64,000 nt of DNA from the NCBI GenBank assembly GCA_011523365.1, contig WTGY01000199.1, positions 1 to 64,000 of the forward strand, given 5' to 3'. Made by a program: the position numbers and the translations under genes. Source of the DNA: Caldilineaceae bacterium (GTDB lineage: Bacteria > Chloroflexota > Anaerolineae > Caldilineales > Caldilineaceae). This document shows, one piece after another, positions 6,527-57,504 of this stretch. The notes beneath the pieces were generated by a model. That model searched no databases. It was given only the letters and a program-made list of their open reading frames with translations, and was not told the DNA's origin. The first letter of the stretch is position 1. Each line of letters opens with the position of its first letter.

Positions 6527-8617
6527 ATGATATTCGATTTCGCTTATTTGACTCTGGTGCTGGCCCTGGTCCTGTGTGCCTTTGGCACAGCCGCAGGATT
6601 CTGGGGAGGACGGCTGGACTCACAAAAGGCGGCACAAAGCTCCGCAATTTCAGGGCACCGTAGAACAACCGGGATTGGGGCTGGCTCAGCCTGGGGTGAC
6701 AAGCTCACGGAGAGTAGCTTTCACTCGATCTATGCGGTTAGCGGATTGGTTGGTATCGCGGCCGTCATCCTGTGGTACGGTTTGTTGACGGACCAGTTCC
6801 AGATCGCCTATATCTGGAACAGCTCGGAGCGAACTCTTCCCACCTTCTACAAGTTTGCCGCGATCTGGGGCGGCCAGGCCGGTAGTCTCCTCTTCTGGAC
6901 GCTCCTGCTCAGCCTGTTCAGCACAGCCGCGGCCCTCACTTTTCGAACGAGCCAGCGCACGCTGATGCCCTATGTCAATGGGACACTGCTGGCCAACCTC
7001 CTGTTCTTCCTCATCCTGCTGGTCTTCAGCGCGAACCCTTTTGAACAGATTGGCCTTTTGCCGAGCGATGGGCGCGGTTTGAACCCGTTGCTCCAGAACT
7101 ACTGGATGGTGATCCACCCGGTCATGCTTTACCTGGGCTGGGTCGGACTTAGTGTTCCCTTTGCATTTGCAGTGGCCGCCCTCCTGAGCAAACGCCTCGA
7201 TCGGCGCTGGGTGCGGACTGTACGCCGCTGGACGCTTATCCCGTGGATGTTTCTCTCGGCCGGCATCATCATGGGCAGCCAGTGGGCCTACATGGAGTTG
7301 GGTTGGGGTGGCTACTGGGCATGGGACCCGGTGGAAAACGCCAGTTTCCTGCCGTGGCTGACCGCGACGGCATTCCTGCACAGTGTCATCATCCAGGAGC
7401 AGCGCGGCATACTCAAGGTGTGGAACGTCACACTGATCTGGCTGACATTTACCCTGGTCATCCTGGGCACTTTCACGACACGCAGCGGAATACTGAGCAG
7501 CGTTCACAGTTTCGCGCAGAGCCCTGTGGGGCCATATTTCCTCGTCTTCCTGGCCGTAACCACGGTTGGATTCCTCCTTCTGCTCTTTCATAGGATGCCC
7601 TACCTGCAAGGCGAGAATGAGATCGACTCGATTTCGAGCAGGGAAGGGGCGTTTCTGGCCAATAACTGGCTGTTTGCAGGCATCGCGTTTGTCGTGCTTT
7701 GGGGTACCTTCTACCCCATGTTCAGCGAGATACTGACCGGGGAACGCATTTCGGTTGCGGCGCCTTGGTTCAACCGGGTCGCGGGTCCGCTCTTCCTTCT
7801 GCTGTTCGTTCTGATGGGAGTAGGTCCTCTGCTTGGCTGGCGGCGAACCGGCGCGAAGGCGTTACGCCGGCAATTCACTTGGCCTCTCGCGGCGGCGCTG
7901 ATCTCGATTCCTTTTCTCCTTTTCACCAGCAGAAATGTATTTCCGGTCGTCGGGTTCGCCGTCTGCATTTTCGTCGCAGCGACGATCGTACAGGAATTCG
8001 TGCGTGGGGCAATTGCGCGTCGGCGGTCAAGGGGCGAGCCGGTGGCCTCCGCTCTGTGGGGGTTGATTCGACGCAACGGACGCCGCTATGGCGGGTACGT
8101 GATTCACTTTGGCATCGTACTGATTGGGGTTGCCATCATCGGCAACGAGTTCTACCAGTCGACGACGCACGTCACTTTGGCCGAAGGTGATGAGGTTGAG
8201 CTGTCCGGCTATTCGCTGAAATACATCGCACTCGAATCGAAGCAACAGAGCAATCATACAGAGATCAGAGCCAATCTTCAGGTCTCTGATGCTGAGACCG
8301 GACGGATCCTGGCGAAGATCTTTCCCCGCCGAAACATATATGACAAGTCACCCGACCAGCCTACCAGCGAGGTCGGGCTGCGCATGACGCCTGCTGAAGA
8401 TGTCTATGTGATTCTCAACGGTTGGGAAGGCGACGGCAGTAGTGCTACCTTCACAGTCTATGTCAATCCGCTCACAATGTGGATGTGGGTGGGCGGACTG
8501 CTCGTCGTGCTGGGCACCGTCGTTTGCGTCTGGCCCCATCCAAAGCCGGCCCGATCCTCGCGCGAAGCGACTACCCCGTTTCCCGGCGGAGCAGCTGCAG
8601 GTCCGGTGTCGGCTTGA
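6527..8617 (+). CDS. ccmF: cytochrome c maturation heme lyase CcmF
   Basis: A 696-residue polytopic membrane protein of the CcmF/CcsA heme-handling superfamily, which attaches heme to apocytochromes c outside the membrane. The tryptophan-rich WWD motif is visible ([18 protein letters not shown], about residues 258-275), flanked by many hydrophobic segments and conserved histidines such as the one in [13 protein letters not shown]-terminal soluble stretch (~550-660) precedes a last helix, as in CcmF. The open frame extends upstream into copA, but the ATG at 6527, 5 bases after the copA stop, gives the normal N-terminus [13 protein letters not shown]. Length matches CcmF (about 650). No ccmA-E or ccmG genes lie nearby, so the rest of system I must be elsewhere. 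Confidence 0.9.
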
Positions 8618-8738
8618 CTGCGATGCATCCTCGCCGCACTGCCGCTAGTCCGATCATAGTCGCACATCCAGGCATTGAAGAGCTGGCAAGGGACACAGCC
8701 TCAAACAGGAATGACCGCGTAGGCTTCCTCGCATTGCA

Positions 8739-9140
8739 ATGTGGGTAACAATTGCACTGATCAGCGTGTTGGGCATCGCAGCAGTAGGCTATGTCATTTT
8801 GCCTCTGTTTGGTCGGGCGCGCACGGTTGTCTCGGCCGAGGGAGAGGAGCTGGCCGACCTGATAACGCGCAAGGAAGTCGCATTGGAGGCGATCCGAGAG
8901 CTTGAGTTTGATCACGGGGTCGGAAAGATCGAGGCCGCGGACTTTGAGCGATTCAACCGGATACTGCGGCTTCGGGCGATCAGGCTGATTGAACGAATCG
9001 AGGCTGACTTCGGGGAACCCGATGAACTGGGCCCGGATGGCGTCCAACTGGATGAACAGTTGGAGTCTGAAGTTTACAGCAGGCGCAGGGTAGAGGATGT
9101 GCTACCGAATGAAGGCGGCAGTAGTTTACCGGAAGAATGA
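8739..9140 (+). CDS. CcmI-like c-type cytochrome biogenesis protein (short form)
   Basis: A 133-residue protein with one N-terminal membrane helix (MWVTIALISVLGIAAVGYVIL), then a helical soluble part with LITRKEVALEAIRELEFDHGVGKI and a following DFERFNRILRLRAI segment. This resembles the N-terminal region of CcmI/CycH and the short proteins that accompany ccmF in several phyla. CcmI acts as an apocytochrome chaperone; the C-terminal TPR domain of proteobacterial CcmI is absent here. It lies 121 bases after ccmF on the same strand, which supports a role in cytochrome c maturation. The last 32 bases overlap the next gene. The function is inferred from position and helix pattern. Confidence 0.65.
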   Translation: MWVTIALISVLGIAAVGYVILPLFGRARTVVSAEGEELADLITRKEVALEAIRELEFDHGVGKIEAADFERFNRILRLRAIRLIERIEADFGEPDELGPDGVQLDEQLESEVYSRRRVEDVLPNEGGSSLPEE

Positions 9141-10146
9141 TATCCGAATAGCCGAAGTGCCGCGACCTAGGGCCGGCAGCGGAGAGGTCGTCGTAAAGGT
9201 TAGGGCCTCCGGCATCTGCGCAACCGACGTCAAAATCCTGAGCGGCGCCGGGATTCCCGCCGACCTGCCTGCCATCTTAGGACATGAAGTTGCCGGAACT
9301 GTCGTTGAGGTGGGACCGGGCACTGAAGATTGTGGACTGCACTTCGGGCAGCGCGTTGCTGTCTATCCCATCGCAGCATGCGGCGAATGTCTGTATTGCC
9401 GTCAGGGACGAAACAGTCTCTGTCTGCACGAGCACGGCCTGGGACACGGCGACGACGGCGGATTCGCGGAGTACGTGAGGATCCCTGCAGAGGTTGTGCG
9501 TCTCGGCGGCGTAATTGACATCGGTGATATGCCGTTCGACCTGGCGGCGATGATAGAGCCGACCTCCTGCTGCATCGCAGCCGCCGACCAGTGCAGGACG
9601 AAAGCCGGAGACACAGTCGTTGTGGTCGGCGTGGGTCCGCTGGGCCTACTCCATACAGTGGTCTCGACGGCACTGGGCGCCAGCGTTGTCTGCGTGGATG
9701 TCAACGAGGACCGGCTGGCCACTGCAAGGAGCTTGGGCGCGAAGCGGGCGATCAATCCCGAAAACGAGGATGCGCAAGAGGTTGTACGTGAAATGACCTG
9801 CGTAGGCGCCGACGTAGTCATAGCGGCCGTCGGCTTCCCGCAAGTAATGGAGAACTACCTCCCGCTGGTTCGAAACGGCGGCGTCTTCAACATCTTTGGC
9901 GGTACACCGCGCGGGGAGACGATGACGGTTGATCCTCGCTGGATCCACTACGGGGAGATCGTATTGACGGGAACCTTTGCCTCTTCGGTGAACCAGTTCC
10001 ACAAGGCGTTCAGTTTTGTGCAGGAGCATTCTAAGGATATCGAGGCTGTGATCTCATCGCGGTGCGGCCTGGATGATATTTTGGCAGCAGTCCGGCGAGT
10101 CCAGAAGGGCGAGGGCACAAAGTCGGTTATCTTGTTTCCGGAGTGA
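9109..10146 (+). CDS. zinc-dependent medium-chain alcohol/polyol dehydrogenase
   Basis: A 345-residue medium-chain dehydrogenase/reductase. The catalytic zinc ligands are Cys37 (SGICATD) and His59-Glu60 (GHEVAGTVVEVG), with the structural zinc cluster CGECLYCRQGRNSLC. The NAD(P)-binding turn is GVGPLGLL. It therefore oxidises an alcohol or polyol, in the sorbitol/threonine dehydrogenase-like branch; the substrate cannot be read from sequence. I chose the internal ATG at 9109 because MKAAVVY is the family's usual N-terminus; this overlaps the CcmI-like gene by 32 bases. It is followed 34 bases later by the metallo-beta-lactamase-fold gene. Confidence 0.85.
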   Translation: MKAAVVYRKNDIRIAEVPRPRAGSGEVVVKVRASGICATDVKILSGAGIPADLPAILGHEVAGTVVEVGPGTEDCGLHFGQRVAVYPIAACGECLYCRQGRNSLCLHEHGLGHGDDGGFAEYVRIPAEVVRLGGVIDIGDMPFDLAAMIEPTSCCIAAADQCRTKAGDTVVVVGVGPLGLLHTVVSTALGASVVCVDVNEDRLATARSLGAKRAINPENEDAQEVVREMTCVGADVVIAAVGFPQVMENYLPLVRNGGVFNIFGGTPRGETMTVDPRWIHYGEIVLTGTFASSVNQFHKAFSFVQEHSKDIEAVISSRCGLDDILAAVRRVQKGEGTKSVILFPE

Positions 10147-10180
10147 GTCTGCATGCACAACCGGGCTTGAAGGGAATGGA

Positions 10181-10912
10181 ATGAAGATCAAGTGGTATGC
10201 ACACGCCTGTCTGCGAATCGAAGGCGACGATGTCAGCATCGTTACCGACCCCTATACACCCCATAAGTCCGGTTTTGCCGCGGTCACCGAGACGGCCGAT
10301 ATCGTCGTTCGCAGCTCAGACGACGACTCCGCCCACGCCAACGCCGACATGATCCCGGGGGACCCGGAGGTAGTGACGGCAACGCATATACTGGCATTCG
10401 AAGGCGCAGATGGTAACGGATCACCCGCGGAGCCGGAGGCTGGCCGAGACGGTTCGACTTTTCTAACTCAGGCAGGCGTCCGATTCAAAGCCATCCCGGC
10501 GATGGAGTCGATGCGCGTAAAGCTGCAGCCGCGAGACAATGCGATGTACTGTTTTGTCGTCGAGGGAATCCGGGTTGTTCATTTCGGCGATGTGGGCAAT
10601 CGCCTGGAGGCGTGGCAGCTTGATCGGATGGGAGAAGTCGACGTGGCCATTGTCCCCACCGGCGGTCCGCCCACTATCGAGCTGGCAGACCTGCACGAAG
10701 CCCTCGACATTCTGCTTCCTGCGGTGACGATCCCAATGCACTACGAACTACCAGGCTGCAGATTTCCCACGATGGCCGATGTGAAAGAGTTCACACACCG
10801 GTACCCGCCGTCGTCTGTCATGTGGGCTGACACGCCAGAAGTCGAGCTCACGAAGGCTACTCTTCCTGTGGAACCACAGGTATGGGTGCTGCAAGCCACC
10901 ACGGCAGGATAG
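10181..10912 (+). CDS. metallo-beta-lactamase-fold protein with a degenerate metal motif
   Basis: A 243-residue UlaG/UPF0173-like metallo-hydrolase fold protein: KIKWYAHACLRIE at the N-terminus, VVHFGDVGN near residue 130 and PMHYELPG near 188 are typical landmarks. The hallmark HxHxDH loop is replaced by SSDDDSAHANADM (about 45-58), so metal binding must differ from canonical members, or activity may be lost. AAGGGAATGGA precedes the ATG at 10181; the open frame runs further upstream but inside the dehydrogenase gene. The substrate is unknown. Its position behind the dehydrogenase suggests a shared pathway. Confidence 0.75.
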   Translation: MKIKWYAHACLRIEGDDVSIVTDPYTPHKSGFAAVTETADIVVRSSDDDSAHANADMIPGDPEVVTATHILAFEGADGNGSPAEPEAGRDGSTFLTQAGVRFKAIPAMESMRVKLQPRDNAMYCFVVEGIRVVHFGDVGNRLEAWQLDRMGEVDVAIVPTGGPPTIELADLHEALDILLPAVTIPMHYELPGCRFPTMADVKEFTHRYPPSSVMWADTPEVELTKATLPVEPQVWVLQATTAG

Positions 10913-10982
10913 CCATACCGCAGGGGTCAATCTCTATGTTCGGGCGCAACGCAATTGGCAGCGGCTTCTGACTCTTGGCCTG

Positions 10983-12236
10983 TCAAGCTTCTGCTTCCTT
11001 TTGCGTGTACCTGCTGCCAGACAGATGGGGAGCAGTCAGTGCACCGATTACACTTACTACCGACGCCGCGATATACAGGCCAGTCAGCCCAAACCCATCG
11101 AGAACCATTCCAAGTAACCAACTCCCCACGCCAATCCCAAGATCGAAAGCCAGATAGAAGCCGGCCGTGGCGCGCCCGCGCTGAGCCGGCGGCATGCGAT
11201 CCACGCAGATTGCAATCAGGGCAGGGTGGCTGATGCCGGATCCAATGCCCATCAGCACCGCGCTCCCGGCGAGAAGGGACATGTTCGCTGAGGCCGCCAG
11301 CCCAACTAAACCTAAGGCGTTTACAATCAGTGCAGCAAGTAACATCAGGCCGCGGTTTACCCGGTCGAGCAGACGCCCCGTCAGGATACGGGTGGCGATA
11401 ATTGAGACGCCGTAGACAGCATAGGCAGCGCCTACCGATGCCAGCTCCCTGCGCTCTGCCAGCAGCGGCAGAAAGGCAAAAAGGGCGCCGAAGCTTATGC
11501 CGAAGAGCGCGGTCGTCAGCATCGGCCCGCGTAGAGGCCTGGGCAGCGAGAACAGTTGCGCGGGACGGAATACACTGCCCGCGCGTGCGGTGGCCCGAGG
11601 GATGACCCACCAGACGAGAGCAAAGGCCAGAATCGACAACCCTGAACTCAGGAAAAACGCGCTGTGGCCGATGCCGCGGCCCCACAGCGGGCACAGAACC
11701 CCATTGGTACTGGCGCCTTCGACCGCTGGCGTACACCATGTTGGACAGGGGGAGGTTGGGCAGGCGAACCGCGGGGTGAGCAGTTCGAGTCCGGCGCTGA
11801 CTGCAGCCGGGGTCAACGTGATGGCCACATTGGCGGCGGCCCCAAACAGTGCCAGTGCGGCGCCTCTGCGTTCCGGTTCGGCCAGTTCGGCGACCAGCGC
11901 AGTCGCGGCAGTGGTAAAGGTGACGTAACCGGCCGCCTGTAGTACGCGCAGCCCAAAGAGGAGTACGGGGTTGGACGTGAAGCTCATCAAGGCCGCGCCG
12001 GCGGCCAGAGCAACCGTCCCGAACAGAATGACCGGACGGCTACCCAGACTATCACTAACAACACCTGTCAGCGGACGCCCAACCAGCGAGGCAACCCCAA
12101 ACGCCCCAAGGACCAGGCCAATTTGCCAGTCGGGCAGGCCCTCTGCCTCCAGGTAAAGGGGAATCGGTACAAGGAGGGCGTAGAAGGCGGCGAAGAACAG
12201 CAACGCCGCCGTCCACACCGTCCAGTAACGGCTCAC
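10983..12236 (-). CDS. MFS efflux transporter of the arsenic operon, with Cys-rich external loop
   Basis: A 417-residue major facilitator with about 12 hydrophobic segments and the MFS loop signature GRPLTGVVSDSLGSR after TM2. It starts at GTG 12236, two bases beyond the arsM stop, so the two are translationally coupled; the longer frame upstream is only an arsM shadow. The loop between TM5 and TM6, predicted outside the membrane, is expanded and holds four cysteines (159, 164, 168, 182), which is unusual for this family. Operon position after arsR and arsM makes export of arsenite or a methylated arsenical likely. Known arsenic MFS pumps include ArsJ and ArsK; I cannot assign it to either. 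It converges with the metallo-hydrolase gene. Confidence 0.8.
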   Translation of the reverse strand: MSRYWTVWTAALLFFAAFYALLVPIPLYLEAEGLPDWQIGLVLGAFGVASLVGRPLTGVVSDSLGSRPVILFGTVALAAGAALMSFTSNPVLLFGLRVLQAAGYVTFTTAATALVAELAEPERRGAALALFGAAANVAITLTPAAVSAGLELLTPRFACPTSPCPTWCTPAVEGASTNGVLCPLWGRGIGHSAFFLSSGLSILAFALVWWVIPRATARAGSVFRPAQLFSLPRPLRGPMLTTALFGISFGALFAFLPLLAERRELASVGAAYAVYGVSIIATRILTGRLLDRVNRGLMLLAALIVNALGLVGLAASANMSLLAGSAVLMGIGSGISHPALIAICVDRMPPAQRGRATAGFYLAFDLGIGVGSWLLGMVLDGFGLTGLYIAASVVSVIGALTAPHLSGSRYTQKEAEA

Positions 12237-12238
12237 GT

Positions 12239-13132
12239 TCAGGGCTTTCGAGCCTGGATGCTGCTGCCTGTAAAGCGCTGTAACAGGTCTTGTAGCATGT
12301 TCGGGCTCAGATTCGTCAGCGCAGGCGGCAGTTCGCCGTTGAAGTCTTCGGTGGTATAGCGCTGTTCGATGGTTATGGCAATGTCTTGGAAGCCGGCGGC
12401 CTGAAGCAAATGAGTGAATTCGCTGATCGTCAAAGCACCGGAAATGCAACCTGCCCAACTCAGTCCAGCCCGAATCTGTTCCTCGCTCACCGGCATGCCG
12501 GAAAGATCGCCGTCAACAACGATATCTGAAATCGCAACCCGCCCTCCCCGTCTGAGTACGCGGAAGGCCTCGTTGAGGACCTTCTCCTTGTCGGTGGTGA
12601 GATTCACAACGCAATTGGAGATGACCGCGTCGACGCTATCGGCCGGAAGAGGGAGGTCTTCGAGGTCTCCCTTGCGGAACTCTACGTTAGTCGCTCCGGC
12701 CTTGTCGGCGTTACGGCGAGCCAGCTCTAGCATGCTGTCGTTCATGTCGACGCCATAGACGTAGCCGGTATCACCGACCTGACGGGCAGCGAGCAGCACG
12801 TCGAGTCCGCCTCCTGAGCCGAGATCGAGGACAGTTTCGCCGGGAGCTAGGGAGGCGATAGCATTGGGATTGCCGCAGCCCCGGCTGCTATTGACGGCCG
12901 TGTCGGGCAGTTGGCTCAAGTCTTCCAGGTCGTAGAAATCGCTGCCGCAACAGTCCTGACCCCCTCTGCCCTTAAGCTGCTGTTCGGCTACGCGCCCGTA
13001 GTGCAACTGTACCTCGGCGCGTATGGCCTCGGGATCGTTAAGCGCAGGCCGCTGGCTGTGAGAATCGGCTGCGCAGCAACCCTCTGTCTGCATTTCACCT
13101 GGCTTCTGCGCCAATTCAGTTTGGGATGCCAT
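12239..13132 (-). CDS. arsM: arsenite S-adenosylmethionine methyltransferase
   Basis: A 297-residue methyltransferase that methylates As(III) using SAM. The SAM site is VLDLGSGGGLDVLLAA, followed by GVDMNDSML. Cysteines characteristic of ArsM are present: C19-C20 near the N-terminus, C61-C62 (QDCCGSDFY), C86 (SRGCGNP), C174 (ISNCVVNL) and C229 (WAGCISGAL), matching the three arsenic-binding cysteines of characterised enzymes. I chose the ATG at 13132, which has GGAG nine bases upstream; it overlaps the end of arsR by 17 bases. An in-frame ATG at 13153 is possible. Second gene of the arsR-arsM-MFS operon. Confidence 0.92.
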   Translation of the reverse strand: MASQTELAQKPGEMQTEGCCAADSHSQRPALNDPEAIRAEVQLHYGRVAEQQLKGRGGQDCCGSDFYDLEDLSQLPDTAVNSSRGCGNPNAIASLAPGETVLDLGSGGGLDVLLAARQVGDTGYVYGVDMNDSMLELARRNADKAGATNVEFRKGDLEDLPLPADSVDAVISNCVVNLTTDKEKVLNEAFRVLRRGGRVAISDIVVDGDLSGMPVSEEQIRAGLSWAGCISGALTISEFTHLLQAAGFQDIAITIEQRYTTEDFNGELPPALTNLSPNMLQDLLQRFTGSSIQARKP

Positions 13133-13529
13133 GAGTGTGTTCTCCATTATCATGAAGGATCTGATTCAGAAACTGTTGAAGCGTCGCAACACCTTCCGTT
13201 GCCGCCGAATAGTAGATCCAAGTGCCCCGCCGTTCGCTGACGACCAGACCCGCTCTGCGAAGCAAACGCAAGTGATGGGAAATCGTTGGCTGCGATAGGG
13301 CGAAATGGGACTCGATGTGGCAAACGCACATCGGGCTAGACTGCAGTGAAAGCAACTCCAGAATCTTTAAACGAACAGGGTGGCCGACGGCTTTGAAGGC
13401 TGCCGCCATTGAGTCCGTCGCTGCATCGGTCGCGTTCAATTTAGCTAAGAATTCGCCGACGGGCTCTACTGACAGTTCCGGGACACTCACGTCCCTTGAA
13501 CGCCTGGCTGGTGCCTTTTCAATTGCCAT
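13116..13529 (-). CDS. arsR: ArsR-family arsenic-responsive repressor
   Basis: A 137-residue winged-helix repressor. The recognition helix region reads ALSQPTISHHLRLLRRAGLV, and the As(III)-sensing pair is Cys68-x-Cys70 (MCVCHIE), the arrangement of the classical ArsR alpha-3N/alpha-3 sensor. ATG 13529 follows GGGAG by about nine bases; the frame is open further upstream, but that part covers the promoter. A perfect palindrome over its own promoter (13630-13655) should be its operator, giving autoregulation of arsR-arsM-MFS. Confidence 0.93.
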   Translation of the reverse strand: MAIEKAPARRSRDVSVPELSVEPVGEFLAKLNATDAATDSMAAAFKAVGHPVRLKILELLSLQSSPMCVCHIESHFALSQPTISHHLRLLRRAGLVVSERRGTWIYYSAATEGVATLQQFLNQILHDNGEHTHGIPN

Positions 13530-38611: not shown

Positions 38612-40085
38612 CCAACAACATGCCTCATCGACCGGGTGCCGATATTCGTAACGGGTGCCTAATCGAAAGTGTCCAGCCAGACCACGTCCCGCCAGTCCCA
38701 TCAGATCCCCGCAGGTGCCGGCCCTGTTCCTGCCCTCGCACCCGCCCCAACTGACGGACTCCACCGTACGGCCAGGCCTGGGGCCTGACCTGTTGGCTAT
38801 ATGCGAAGCACAGGTGACTGAAACCTCAATCCCCCAAACTATTGAAACCCGAACTCAAAAGTTGCGCGAAAATGTCACCAAAATGGCGTCCATTCTGTGC
38901 TAAAATGTAACTGAAATGATCTGACCGTCAACGGATTCCTTGCAAGAAAGGACAGTTCCAAAAGAAGACAAGCACGCGTCGCCGAAACCACGACTGCAGC
39001 GCCCCATCCTTCGTCCACGCCAGTTTGCCCGAAATTCAAGCAGGTAGTCGCCGTGAGTCTTCCCTCCGCGAACTCATTCTGGAGGACGCCCAAACCAGGA
39101 GCCGACCCCCGATACGGGCCGGCAGACGCCAATAGCGCTCCTGCAAAAGAGCCAAAGGGAAACCCAACCGACATAGCCCGACTTGATCCGACTTTAATCG
39201 CACAAACGGAAAACGCTCGCAAACGCACGCAAACTCTCGTGAACTCTTGTAAACTCTCGTACAACACACGCAAACACTCGTCACACTGCGCCCGCGACCG
39301 AAGACACCCGCCATCCTGAAAATCCAAAAAAATCCAGCAAATCCTGATTCAGACAACCCGCAAACGCACGCAAACTCTCGTGAACTCTTGCAAACTCTCG
39401 TACAACACTCGCAAACACTCGTCACACTGCGCCCGCGACCGAAGACACCCGCCATCCTGAAAATCCAAAAAAATCCAGCAAATCCTGATTCAGACAACCC
39501 GCAAACGCACGCAAACTCTCGTGAACTCTTGCAAACTCTCGTACAACACTCGCAAACACTCGTCACACTGCGCCCGCGACCGAAGACACCCGCCATCCTG
39601 AAAATCCAAAAAAATCCAGCAAATCCTGATTCAGACAACCCGCAAACGCACGCAAACTCTCGTGAACTCTTGCAAACTCTCGTACAACACTCGCAAACAC
39701 TCGTCACACTGCGTCCGCGACCGAAGACTCCCGCCATCCCGATAATCCAAAAAAATCCAGCAAATCCTGATTCAGACAACCACGCAACCAAAAAGAGCCC
39801 TGACAGGCCTGTCGGCTTACCGTTTCTGCTGAATAGAGATCGGCCTTCCCGATATCTCAGAGAAACCAACCAAGTGAATGCACTTTGAAGGCTTTTCCTA
39901 CCTGCGAATCAAATTGCGACTGCCCTGCTCCCTTCAGTGCCCGATATCGTCAGAAGCCTGAATATGTGGTAAACTCTGCACGCGCAGCCAAACTTTCGCC
40001 CATGCCTGCTTGATGGACATGTCATTAGGCACAGGAGGACGTTTGGCCTTTCTGTGTGCATTTACCATTCCACTCTACCCTTCAC
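38612..40085. other. gene-free region containing the 141-bp tandem repeats
   Basis: Together with the livK upstream region this makes about 1.8 kb without a convincing gene. Open frames at 39036-39869 (-) and 39388-39888 (+) exist only because the repeat unit is a multiple of three. Outside the repeats I see nothing recognisable. Confidence 0.6.
39220..39782. repeat. four 141-bp tandem repeats
   Basis: Units begin at 39220, 39361, 39502 and 39643. Units 2 and 3 are identical by eye; unit 1 differs from them at about two bases and unit 4 at several, and ends imperfectly. Each unit has an internal half of CAAAC/CTCGT words spaced 9-11 bases and a half of ATCC words spaced 9-10 bases. There are no unique spacers, so it is not a CRISPR array. 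Confidence 0.95.
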
Positions 40086-54632: not shown

Positions 54633-55610
54633 ATGGAAGAGATAGTCATACAGACGCCCGCCCGCCTACATTTCGGCCTCCTCGACTTGCACGGCGGACT
54701 GGGGAGAATCGATGGCGGCATCGGACTGGCTCTCGAAAAGCCCAGGACAGTCATTTCCGCCAGGCGCAGCAGCGGCTGCGATGCCTCCTGCCCGATGGAG
54801 CGAGCATTCGAAGGACGTCTCGAGACTGCGCTTCAAGCTGTCTGCAGCCAATATGGATTCCCGGGCGCTTCGGTCTCAATCGCGGAAAGGGCGCGCCCCC
54901 ACTCTGGCCTTGGCAGCGCCTCCCAGACGCTCGTGGGCGCGGGGATTGCCGTCTGCGCGCTCTACGGTCTGGATCCCTGCGTAAAGGAGATCGCAGGTCT
55001 CGTTGGACGGGGAGGGACGTCCGGTATCGGCATTGGAGCCATCCAACAGGGAGGATTCATTTTGGATGGGGGACACCGGTTTCGCCGCGGCGAGGAAAGC
55101 AAATCCGGGTACTCGCCCTCTTCCGCCTCCGTAGGCGTTCCTCCCCCGCCAATCTTGGCGCGCTACGACTTTCCCGATTGGGACGTCCTGATCGTAATTC
55201 CCCAAGGGGAGGGCGCCAGCGGTGACCGCGAGCGCGACCTCTTCGTGGAGGCCTGCCCTGTCCCGGCAAGTGAGGTGGAAAAGATGTGCCGGATACTTTT
55301 GATGCAAATGCTGCCCGCGGTCCTGGAGGAGGACCTGGAGACGTTTGGAGCCGCAATGGAGGCCTTTCAGGGCTACGGGTTCAAGGTTTTTGAAGCCAAG
55401 ACTCAGGGCCCTTTGGTTTCGCAATGCGCAGATTTCCTGCGGTCCAACGGAGGCACAGGCGTGGGAATGAGCAGCTGGGGTCCGACTCTGTTTGCTTTCG
55501 GAGACGATCTGTCAGCACTGCGGGACAAGGCGGAAAGATGGCTCTTGGGCCGAGGAGGGGGAGAGGTCATTTTGACCCGGGCAAACAATCAGGGCTTCAG
55601 GAAGCTGTGA
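54633..55610 (+). CDS. beta-ribofuranosylaminobenzene 5'-phosphate synthase-like GHMP-fold protein
   Basis: A 325-residue homologue of beta-RFAP synthase, which joins p-aminobenzoate (or 4-hydroxybenzoate) to phosphoribosyl pyrophosphate with loss of CO2 at the start of tetrahydromethanopterin synthesis. It begins QTPARLHFGLLDLHGGLGRIDGGIGLALE and carries the GHMP phosphate loop RPHSGLGSASQ (88-98), then GRGGTSGIGIGAIQQGGFILDGGH. The reaction in this organism is inferred. It is followed 108 bases later by a TrpF homologue. No other methanopterin gene is in the window. Confidence 0.82.
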   Translation: MEEIVIQTPARLHFGLLDLHGGLGRIDGGIGLALEKPRTVISARRSSGCDASCPMERAFEGRLETALQAVCSQYGFPGASVSIAERARPHSGLGSASQTLVGAGIAVCALYGLDPCVKEIAGLVGRGGTSGIGIGAIQQGGFILDGGHRFRRGEESKSGYSPSSASVGVPPPPILARYDFPDWDVLIVIPQGEGASGDRERDLFVEACPVPASEVEKMCRILLMQMLPAVLEEDLETFGAAMEAFQGYGFKVFEAKTQGPLVSQCADFLRSNGGTGVGMSSWGPTLFAFGDDLSALRDKAERWLLGRGGGEVILTRANNQGFRKL

Positions 55611-55718
55611 AGACCGGTGGGCAATTTTGGAGTCTCCCGTTCGAACCAAGTGGCTAAGGTTATCGCCGGTTGCAATTCGATTCCCTGAGCGGGATCAACG
55701 GAGGGTGGAGCTGAGCAA

Positions 55719-56390
55719 ATGACGGTCCTTAAGCTTTGCGGTACGACAAGTGCAGGAGATGCGCGGCTCGGGCGGGGGGCAGACTTTTGCGGTGTCCTGG
55801 TCGGTGTGGAATGGTCGGAGCGAAGCTTGTCACTGGAAGCTGCCGCGGAAGTGACAAGGGCTTCGGGCGTGAGAAACGTCATCTTACTGTGCAATCCAAG
55901 CCTAGAGTTTGCAGGGGCGGTCTCGAGAACACTGCGCCCTCATGCGCTGCAGCTCCATTGCCACGAAACCCCGAAGCTCGTTTCTGAGTTGAAGAAATCC
56001 CTTTCCTGCGAGATTTGGAAGACTGTACACCTGCCCAGCCTGGACGGACAGGCAATACCCGAAGAGTATGCCGCCGCTGGGGCGGACGCGCTGCTGGTGG
56101 ATTCGGTTGACGTGAGCGAGGGCTTCGAACGGCTGGGAGGGACCGGCAAGGTAGGCGACTGGACAGCGGTGACAGCACTCAAGGAAAAGATTGACATCCC
56201 AATCTTTCTGGCGGGCGGGATCAATCCTGATAACGTCGCCGACGCCGTCCGTCAGGTGCGGCCGCACGGGATTGACCTTTGTAGCGGCGTAGAGGTGCGA
56301 AGGGGCAAACGCGATCCAATTAAGGTGGAAAGCCTGATTCGGAGATTTCGAGGAGCGGCAGCGAAACTCACCCACATGCCAACGCCGTGA
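55719..56390 (+). CDS. phosphoribosylanthranilate isomerase-like (beta/alpha)8 protein
   Basis: A 223-residue TrpF-family barrel. The general base and acid of TrpF are kept: Cys7 (LKLCGTT) and Asp128 (ALLVDS). The phosphate-binding end is recognisable (GGTGKVGDW, FLAGGINPDNV, GIDLCSGVEVRRGKRDP). It is not beside other trp genes. Position behind a beta-RFAP synthase homologue allows a role on an aminobenzene ribosyl phosphate instead of, or besides, tryptophan synthesis; this is inference. Confidence 0.78.
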   Translation: MTVLKLCGTTSAGDARLGRGADFCGVLVGVEWSERSLSLEAAAEVTRASGVRNVILLCNPSLEFAGAVSRTLRPHALQLHCHETPKLVSELKKSLSCEIWKTVHLPSLDGQAIPEEYAAAGADALLVDSVDVSEGFERLGGTGKVGDWTAVTALKEKIDIPIFLAGGINPDNVADAVRQVRPHGIDLCSGVEVRRGKRDPIKVESLIRRFRGAAAKLTHMPTP

Positions 56391-56424: not shown

Positions 56425-57237
56425 TCAACTCTGTCTTTGCAGTTCGAATCCTTCGCCGGCGGTTCGCCGCGAAATTGAAGGACGACCTGCCAGGTCAGGG
56501 AAAGTAGGGCTGGGAAGAGCTTGCCCTTGAGCAAGGAGTTGCTCTGCTATCTTCTGTATCCCGCGCTGGCTCGTAATCAACGCCTGGTGCCGCAGCGTCC
56601 ACACCGCTATGTTCCTGGCTGCAGGAATGCGAGAGTTGAATGGCGGGAGAATCATCAGGTCGAATGGGCTCCAGAGTGAGACAAAGGGTATACTGGCAAG
56701 GCTTTCGGCGTCGGCGTTCAGATCGCTGAGGAATTTGCTGTTGGGCCGCAGCTGCATTGCGCCGGGAAGGGCGCTGGCGTAGGCCATCATCGTGCCGAAA
56801 TGGGGCGCGGCCACCGTCAGAAGGCGATTGGTGCGGGCCAATCCCCCCAAACGCTGAATGTAGTAGCGTGCAACAATGCCGCCAAGGCTGAAGCCGACGA
56901 AGTCGAGCTTCTGATAGGAAAGAAAGTTCCTGTCTACGAACTCGGCCAACTGTTGAGCTAGCGACTCCAGCGGAACGCTGCAATCGCTTGGTGCAAGCGT
57001 CACCGCGTGGGGCTCCAGTCCCAGGTCGGTCAGATAGGAAGCCAGAGGGTTGAATACGGAAGCTTCATCCTTGTAGCCATGTACAAGAACCGTTCGGTTT
57101 CGCCTAGTCTGCTCCAGAGGAGACACCGGTGGCAATGGTACCGTGCCTTCGATGTTTTGACCTGCGGGAGGCAGCTCCCAAACAGATTGCGCGGCGTCCT
57201 GGTACTGTTGCCACAAGCGTCTGCGAATCGTCGACAT
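56425..57237 (-). CDS. alpha/beta hydrolase, lipase-like
   Basis: A 270-residue hydrolase. The oxyanion region is TVLVHGYKDE and the nucleophile elbow is GFSLGG, with VAAPHFGTMMAY following as in triacylglycerol lipases of the LipA/PGAP1-like group. The Asp and His of the triad probably lie near SPFDLMI and LRHQALI. The ATG at 57237 has AAAGGAG upstream and was preferred to one 22 codons earlier. No export signal is seen. Confidence 0.8.
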   Translation of the reverse strand: MSTIRRRLWQQYQDAAQSVWELPPAGQNIEGTVPLPPVSPLEQTRRNRTVLVHGYKDEASVFNPLASYLTDLGLEPHAVTLAPSDCSVPLESLAQQLAEFVDRNFLSYQKLDFVGFSLGGIVARYYIQRLGGLARTNRLLTVAAPHFGTMMAYASALPGAMQLRPNSKFLSDLNADAESLASIPFVSLWSPFDLMILPPFNSRIPAARNIAVWTLRHQALITSQRGIQKIAEQLLAQGQALPSPTFPDLAGRPSISRRTAGEGFELQRQS

Positions 57238-57504
57238 ATTGTTTGCTGCTCCTTTGAATCCTTTCTGTCCAGCCTGAACTTCTACTCTAACATAGTCAAT
57301 CAAGAAGCTGAAACAGCCATTTTCATGCAGATTCGGAGGAGCAATTCTTTAGCATTTCCACCCTTTAGGATAGAATACGAGACAGTTCGTAAAAAAGGTA
57401 TGGCGGCTTCTTTCCACAAGAAAGCAGGTCCTTCGGACCTTAGCAGGTAGACCGGTGCTCCGGCGCCATCCAGGCACAAGAAGGCAAAGCCATTGGGAGG
57501 AAAG

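Follow-up and report, generated by a model that had tools for sequence, protein, structure and literature searches.

A beta-RFAP synthase homologue paired with a TrpF-like isomerase in a Chloroflexota genus: a candidate aryl C-riboside pathway

Beta-RFAP synthase (RFAPS), best known from methane-making microbes, is regarded as the enzyme that commits to methanopterin. Methanopterin synthesis includes a ribofuranose-to-ribitol step that requires chemistry of the C-riboside-opening kind, and the literature that we found names no confirmed enzyme for it. A role in the making of methanopterin had been suggested for a HisA-type isomerase (cited in PMC8141765), and deletion of the HisA-like gene (MJ_0703 / Orf17) in M. 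extorquens leaves methenyl-dH4MPT in place, with loss of methylofuran (PMC8141765). Chorismate lyase has been named for hydroxybenzene (PMC8183095). Our literature search for RFAPS with TrpF or in Chloroflexi, which was thin on subscription papers and is weak evidence of novelty, found no paper.

The window, that is, the whole stretch of 64,000 nucleotides analyzed here, belongs to a 5.67 Mb Chloroflexota assembly that is 99% complete. On its plus strand, at 54633-55610, lies a gene for a 325 aa protein with GHMP kinase domains (Pfam) that scores over the cut-offs of both the NF040726 beta-RFAP synthase profile (332.2 bits; cut-off 328) and TIGR00144 (300.6 bits; cut-off 113.5) and, judged by these profiles, is a full-length member of the RFAPS family. 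The closest solved structure is ForT (E 5e-44), whose PRPP turn (PMC8183095) is kept in the window protein. Residues D18 and R25 are invariant in 12 of the 12 sequences aligned and correspond to D19 and R26 of MTH0830, an Asp/Arg pair that affects pABA binding (PMC6787355); R11 and H90-S95 are also conserved in the alignment. In the RFAPS tree, the TrpF-linked enzymes form, together with that of G516, a single clade (support 99) that lies away from the enzymes of methanogens, Poribacteria and DUF6513 clusters. We propose that the window protein might act as a PRPP-dependent, decarboxylating aryl C-riboside 5-phosphate synthase. A solitary and highly divergent RFAPS homologue of another Chloroflexota genome (L011 in G042, 8572-9588, minus strand), near which TrpF was not found, is possibly another use of the family; that genome has folP and is without DUF447 or MCH.

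The second gene of the pair, at 55719-56390, lies on the same strand with 108 nt between the two open reading frames, and both genes evolve under purifying selection (NG86 dN/dS about 0.1-0.18). Its 223 aa product matches PF00697 (PRAI) with 93.7 bits (cut-off 22.7), and the predicted fold (pLDDT 88.7) aligns with T. maritima TrpF at Z 25.6 and rmsd 2.2 over 200 aligned residues, whereas the best non-TrpF structure reaches Z 19.1, well below the solved TrpFs. On the evidence of the profile and the model, the product is a TrpF-fold isomerase, and the preliminary description of a beta-RFAP synthase homologue beside a TrpF homologue is confirmed in both reading frames and both families. It had also placed the pair away from trp genes, and rightly so: a canonical trpC-X-trpF-aroC locus is present on a separate contig (159) of the same genome. 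The refutation that it had named, with no other trpF in the genome and no linkage kept in relatives, failed on both of these counts. Given that separate locus, the window copy is a paralogue and not the tryptophan enzyme. Both the paralogue and the canonical gene were found in every genome of the genus searched, except G403, which has the canonical gene only.

The linked TrpFs form one clade (94/89), separate from the canonical TrpFs of their own and related genomes. Against the NCBIfam TrpF equivalog (cut-off 215) both copies of the window's genome fall short, the paralogue with 124.5 and the canonical one with 193.8. Cys7, Arg35 and Asp128 (window numbering) and the phosphate-site glycines are invariant in 23 of 23 linked TrpFs, whereas linked and canonical proteins diverge at strand ends (positions 55-58, 81 and 104) and in the loop that follows Asp128; we assume for these catalytic, phosphate-site and pocket positions the roles that they have in TrpF. 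Such a residue pattern would be expected of an enzyme that had kept its chemistry and changed its substrate, and we propose that the enzyme may be a ring-opening isomerase of a C-riboside, although we know of no TrpF that acts on C-ribosides. With all catalytic residues of phosphoribosylanthranilate isomerase in place, activity on that substrate is possible, and the copy might then be a redundant isomerase that stands beside RFAPS by chance. This is very improbable considering that the window genome, G403 and four of the five outside-genus genomes checked have a canonical trpF, that the linked copies form a separate clade and are lost along with RFAPS and the dehydrogenase described below, and that the linkage recurs in altered gene order. 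TrpF homologues of two other Caldilineales genomes (L241 in G438 C78 and L269 in G439 C181) form a tandem pair adjoining a sugar-kinase-like gene; this pair is degenerate, without the catalytic Cys, and was set aside.

Within the genus, RFAPS is present in 15 of the 16 other members and in every one of the 16 RFAPS-bearing genomes, the window's included, it is followed by the adjoining TrpF paralogue; in G402, where contig ends split the RFAPS gene, its tail still precedes TrpF. Neither RFAPS nor the TrpF paralogue was found in the single-contig congener G403, and the eight further genera sampled from the family gave no RFAPS. Upstream genes for a sugar ABC transporter and FtsX were rejected as members of the unit, since G409 and G411 do not have them next to the pair; because the pair persists there without them, RFAPS and TrpF are considered a unit of their own. 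An alpha/beta hydrolase gene (Pfam) at 56425-57303 on the minus strand, convergent with the TrpF-like gene, is present in all genus loci that reach that far and was not found at loci outside the genus. An Rfam search of the RFAPS-TrpF locus gave no match. Elsewhere in the window, a 141-bp unit with an inner 10- and 20-bp periodicity is repeated in tandem at 39218-39787, in four copies that are nearly identical (98% matches), and the open reading frame 39036-39869 over them is probably no gene. Since the genomes of the genus are related, its 16 cases are not independent, and the argument for linkage rests on rearranged operons outside the genus and on the distribution of a dehydrogenase that is not linked to the pair within it and yet keeps to its pattern through one loss.

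With respect to the first of these, a scan of GTDB contigs yielded 80 RFAPS loci, and TrpF was found at seven loci of the genus and at L094, L095, L096, L100 and L101, assigned by their bin titles to Deltaproteobacteria (L094, L095), Chloroflexi (L096) and Caldilineales (L100, L101). No TrpF was found at the remaining 68 loci, which belong to methanogens, other archaea and Poribacteria and some of which are short. A sixth case outside the genus, L274 in G692, came from the survey of the phylum; all of the named outside-genus genomes are metagenome bins, some of them incomplete. In all six outside loci a polyol-type Zn-dehydrogenase gene lies behind TrpF, and in L094, L095 and L096 the dehydrogenase is followed by a DhnA-type class I aldolase, with the order RFAPS-TrpF-dehydrogenase-aldolase in L095 and TrpF-dehydrogenase-aldolase-RFAPS in L094 and L096. 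The preliminary description had asked whether the pair is conserved across Chloroflexota: the linkage is kept in the genus and found again in distant bacteria, but RFAPS is not spread through the phylum as a whole, with matches in 7 of 400 sampled Chloroflexota genomes, several of them weak.

Other RFAPS settings were also encountered. G516 carries an RFAPS of the linked clade, and the 20 kb read there contain no TrpF. There (L270, 9134-16982) and in G480 (L271) a linked-clade RFAPS lies directly behind a thiolase gene, and in G516 a BadF-type ATPase and two genes for HgdB-type dehydratases are close by; the thiolase of both loci and the HgdB-type genes of G516 fit a CoA chemistry, but TrpF is missing from the stretches read. 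The neighbors of Poribacteria RFAPS genes (an efflux pump, NifU, a sigma factor) were uninformative. Many methanogen RFAPS genes are fused to or stand beside a domain that we take to be chorismate-lyase-like. In L102 (Methanoregulaceae, 9452-13475) the RFAPS has such a domain fused at its N-terminus, and behind it come genes for a DhnA-type aldolase and an MDR dehydrogenase. These two proteins, which share only about 31% identity with their bacterial counterparts, were kept as a lead only, and an aldolase and dehydrogenase together as in L102 were found in no other methanogen locus examined.

The preliminary description overlooked the dehydrogenase of the window itself, a polyol-type, Zn-dependent medium-chain enzyme of 345 aa encoded at 9109-10146 on the plus strand, 45 kb from the RFAPS-TrpF pair. 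It is 65.6% identical to the dehydrogenase of the L095 operon, which is closer to the window copy than to its counterparts in L094, L096, L100 and L101. An orthologue (76-92%) is present in 16 of the 16 RFAPS-bearing genomes of the genus, whereas G403 and the other genera have no orthologue, just distant family members at <=43% identity. RFAPS, the TrpF paralogue and the dehydrogenase thus share one pattern of presence and absence, and the three genes very probably belong to one pathway. The dehydrogenase contains Pfam ADH_N and ADH_zinc_N domains, four structural-zinc Cys and, in the alignment, a Glu-Pro motif that we take to be that of polyol dehydrogenases; in seven of the seven bacterial dehydrogenases aligned the second Rossmann strand ends in an acidic residue, as is usual for NAD, which suggests that the enzyme is probably NAD-linked. 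A gene for an MBL-fold hydrolase (PF13483) at 10181-10912 on the plus strand, 35 bp behind the dehydrogenase, is syntenic with it at each of the 10 loci read in the genus and was not found at the outside-genus loci; its synteny makes it a possible additional member of the module.

The closeness of the window RFAPS to ForT as the nearest solved structure and the sponge-derived origin of the genus (bin titles) might be taken to indicate a C-nucleoside-like natural product, as in formycin synthesis, with RFAPS ribosylating an aromatic acid and the product being secreted. Such a product, however, needs neither a furanose-opening isomerase nor a sugar-chain dehydrogenase; the window protein retains Asp18 and Arg25, for which ForT has no equivalents, and nearly all members of the genus keep the module, so that we consider a C-nucleoside-like product very improbable. 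The linked pathway on aryl ribosyl phosphates suggested in the preliminary description is consistent with the conserved unit, with the non-tryptophan TrpF and with the recurrence of the linkage alongside a dehydrogenase and sometimes an aldolase.

That pathway does not appear to lead to methanopterin. MCH (PF02289, methenyl-H4MPT cyclohydrolase), one of the genes that the preliminary description had singled out, has no match anywhere in the genome, with matches in the control archaea. DUF447 (PF04289) has no match in G000, G410, G414 and G403, and is found with RFAPS in G002. Genomes of the genus, both with and without RFAPS, carry folP and one further Pterin_bind protein. With both tested markers missing and folP in place, this gene content lends no support to a methanopterin-type cofactor and, on present evidence, suggests no methanopterin C1 metabolism here; the pterin-like cofactor envisaged earlier is not supported by the other linked genes either, which encode enzymes of the sugar-chain dehydrogenase and aldolase kinds. 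The RFAPS score, which only just exceeds the cut-off curated for the methanopterin enzyme, might still recommend ordinary tetrahydromethanopterin biosynthesis with the remaining genes elsewhere in the genome, but both markers are lacking from a genome that is 99% complete, and true clusters pair a divergent RFAPS with DUF6513 or DUF447 and have no TrpF, which occurs at 0 of the 68 other loci; we therefore hold this explanation to be extremely improbable.

From the genes, their families, linkage, co-occurrence and conserved residues, we infer the reactions, their order, the substrates and the end product of a small aryl C-riboside pathway. In the first step, RFAPS would couple PRPP with 4-amino- or 4-hydroxybenzoate to give a 4-substituted phenyl C-riboside 5-phosphate, CO2 and PPi. 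In the second, the TrpF-like enzyme would open the furanose in a carbon analogue of the TrpF Amadori reaction: Asp128 would protonate the ring oxygen, electrons would flow through the ring from the para NH2 or OH, and removal of the C2' proton by Cys7 would yield a 1-aryl-1-deoxyribulose 5-phosphate. Chemically, such an isomerization on an aryl C-riboside is reasonable, since an amino or hydroxy group in the para position can expel the ring oxygen as the anthranilate nitrogen does. In the third, the polyol-type dehydrogenase would work on the sugar chain, either oxidizing or reducing it. We give the first two steps as drawn a somewhat better than even chance of being correct, and an even one to the pathway that comprises both of them and then a dehydrogenase step.

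For the third step we favor oxidation of a secondary hydroxyl (C4), which would produce a 2,4-dione, an aryl version of the LsrF substrate. LsrF is a thiolase whose substrate is the dione 3-hydroxy-5-phosphonooxypentane-2,4-dione. It is the nearest solved structure to the linked aldolase, which keeps the Schiff-base lysine, at the alignment position that is changed to Ala in 4p2v; with a score of 262.7 against a cut-off of 297 for the NCBIfam LsrF profile, the linked aldolase is called LsrF-like only. LsrF also binds ribulose 5-phosphate (PMC2728841). In the aldolase-bearing lineages alone, a fourth step would cleave the dione into arylacetyl-CoA and dihydroxyacetone phosphate; this end product is favored there because LsrF is the nearest structure, the lysine is kept and the dione resembles the LsrF substrate. 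No aldolase orthologue was found in the window's genus, and none in the stretches read at L100, L101 and L274. Since the genus has no orthologue, its last step differs or is missing: cleavage would be carried out by another enzyme or be absent, and the hydrolases at 10181-10912 and 56425-57303, conserved neighbors in the genus, might conceivably stand in for the aldolase. We regard the branch of oxidation and cleavage as tentative, and still more doubtful the complete new pathway that would lead from amino- or hydroxybenzoate and PRPP via a TrpF-opened C-riboside to a C6-C2 aryl product and triose phosphate.

Alternatively, the dehydrogenase could reduce the 2-ketone to 1-(4-aminophenyl)-1-deoxyribitol 5-phosphate, so that the aryl ribitol found in methanopterin would be made by a new route; FolP would then couple it to a pterin, or it would serve to build some other molecule. 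The enzyme is of the reversible polyol/sugar-phosphate type, and NCBIfam matches of its orthologue include galactitol-1-phosphate 5-dehydrogenase; moreover, FolP is present and reduction would explain the aldolase-free lineages. It would, however, leave the aldolase of L094-L096 unexplained, the Rossmann residue is of the NAD type, and both MCH and DUF447 are absent, with no linked pterin gene at any locus read; reduction thus seems unlikely to us.

Should the oxidative or the reductive reading of the shared first steps be true, RFAPS would gain a second biological role, in folate-using bacteria, and a TrpF-type enzyme would have been recruited for the opening of a C-riboside. RFAPS genes in metagenomes could then not be taken by themselves to indicate C1 or methanogenic metabolism.

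Among known systems, LsrF is the nearest solved structure to the L094-L096 aldolase, shares with it the Schiff-base lysine, and binds C5 sugar phosphates; that aldolase nevertheless falls below the LsrF cut-off, comes with no lsr genes and is without an orthologue in the window's genome. MJ_0703 / Orf17 offers the parallel of a HisA-type barrel isomerase suggested for methanopterin synthesis, but belongs to another family (PF00977). ForT / PyfQ, full-length homologues of the window RFAPS, exemplify PRPP-dependent, decarboxylating C-riboside formation outside methanopterin, and the literature found describes no TrpF-like partner for them; ForT, in contrast, uses a pyrazole dicarboxylate and is without equivalents of D18 and R25. 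TrpF, like HisA and PriA, shares with the window isomerase the fold, the catalytic Cys, Asp and Arg and the phosphate site, whereas the window copy falls in a separate clade, with changes in the pocket at 55-58, 81 and 104, a longer loop after Asp128 and no trp neighbors. Finally, the methanopterin beta-RFAP (RHP) synthase and the window protein are alike in full-length family membership over the cut-off, in the pABA-affecting Asp/Arg and in the PRPP turn, but the window enzyme, in genomes without MCH or DUF447, belongs to a clade of its own that is linked to TrpF and the dehydrogenase.
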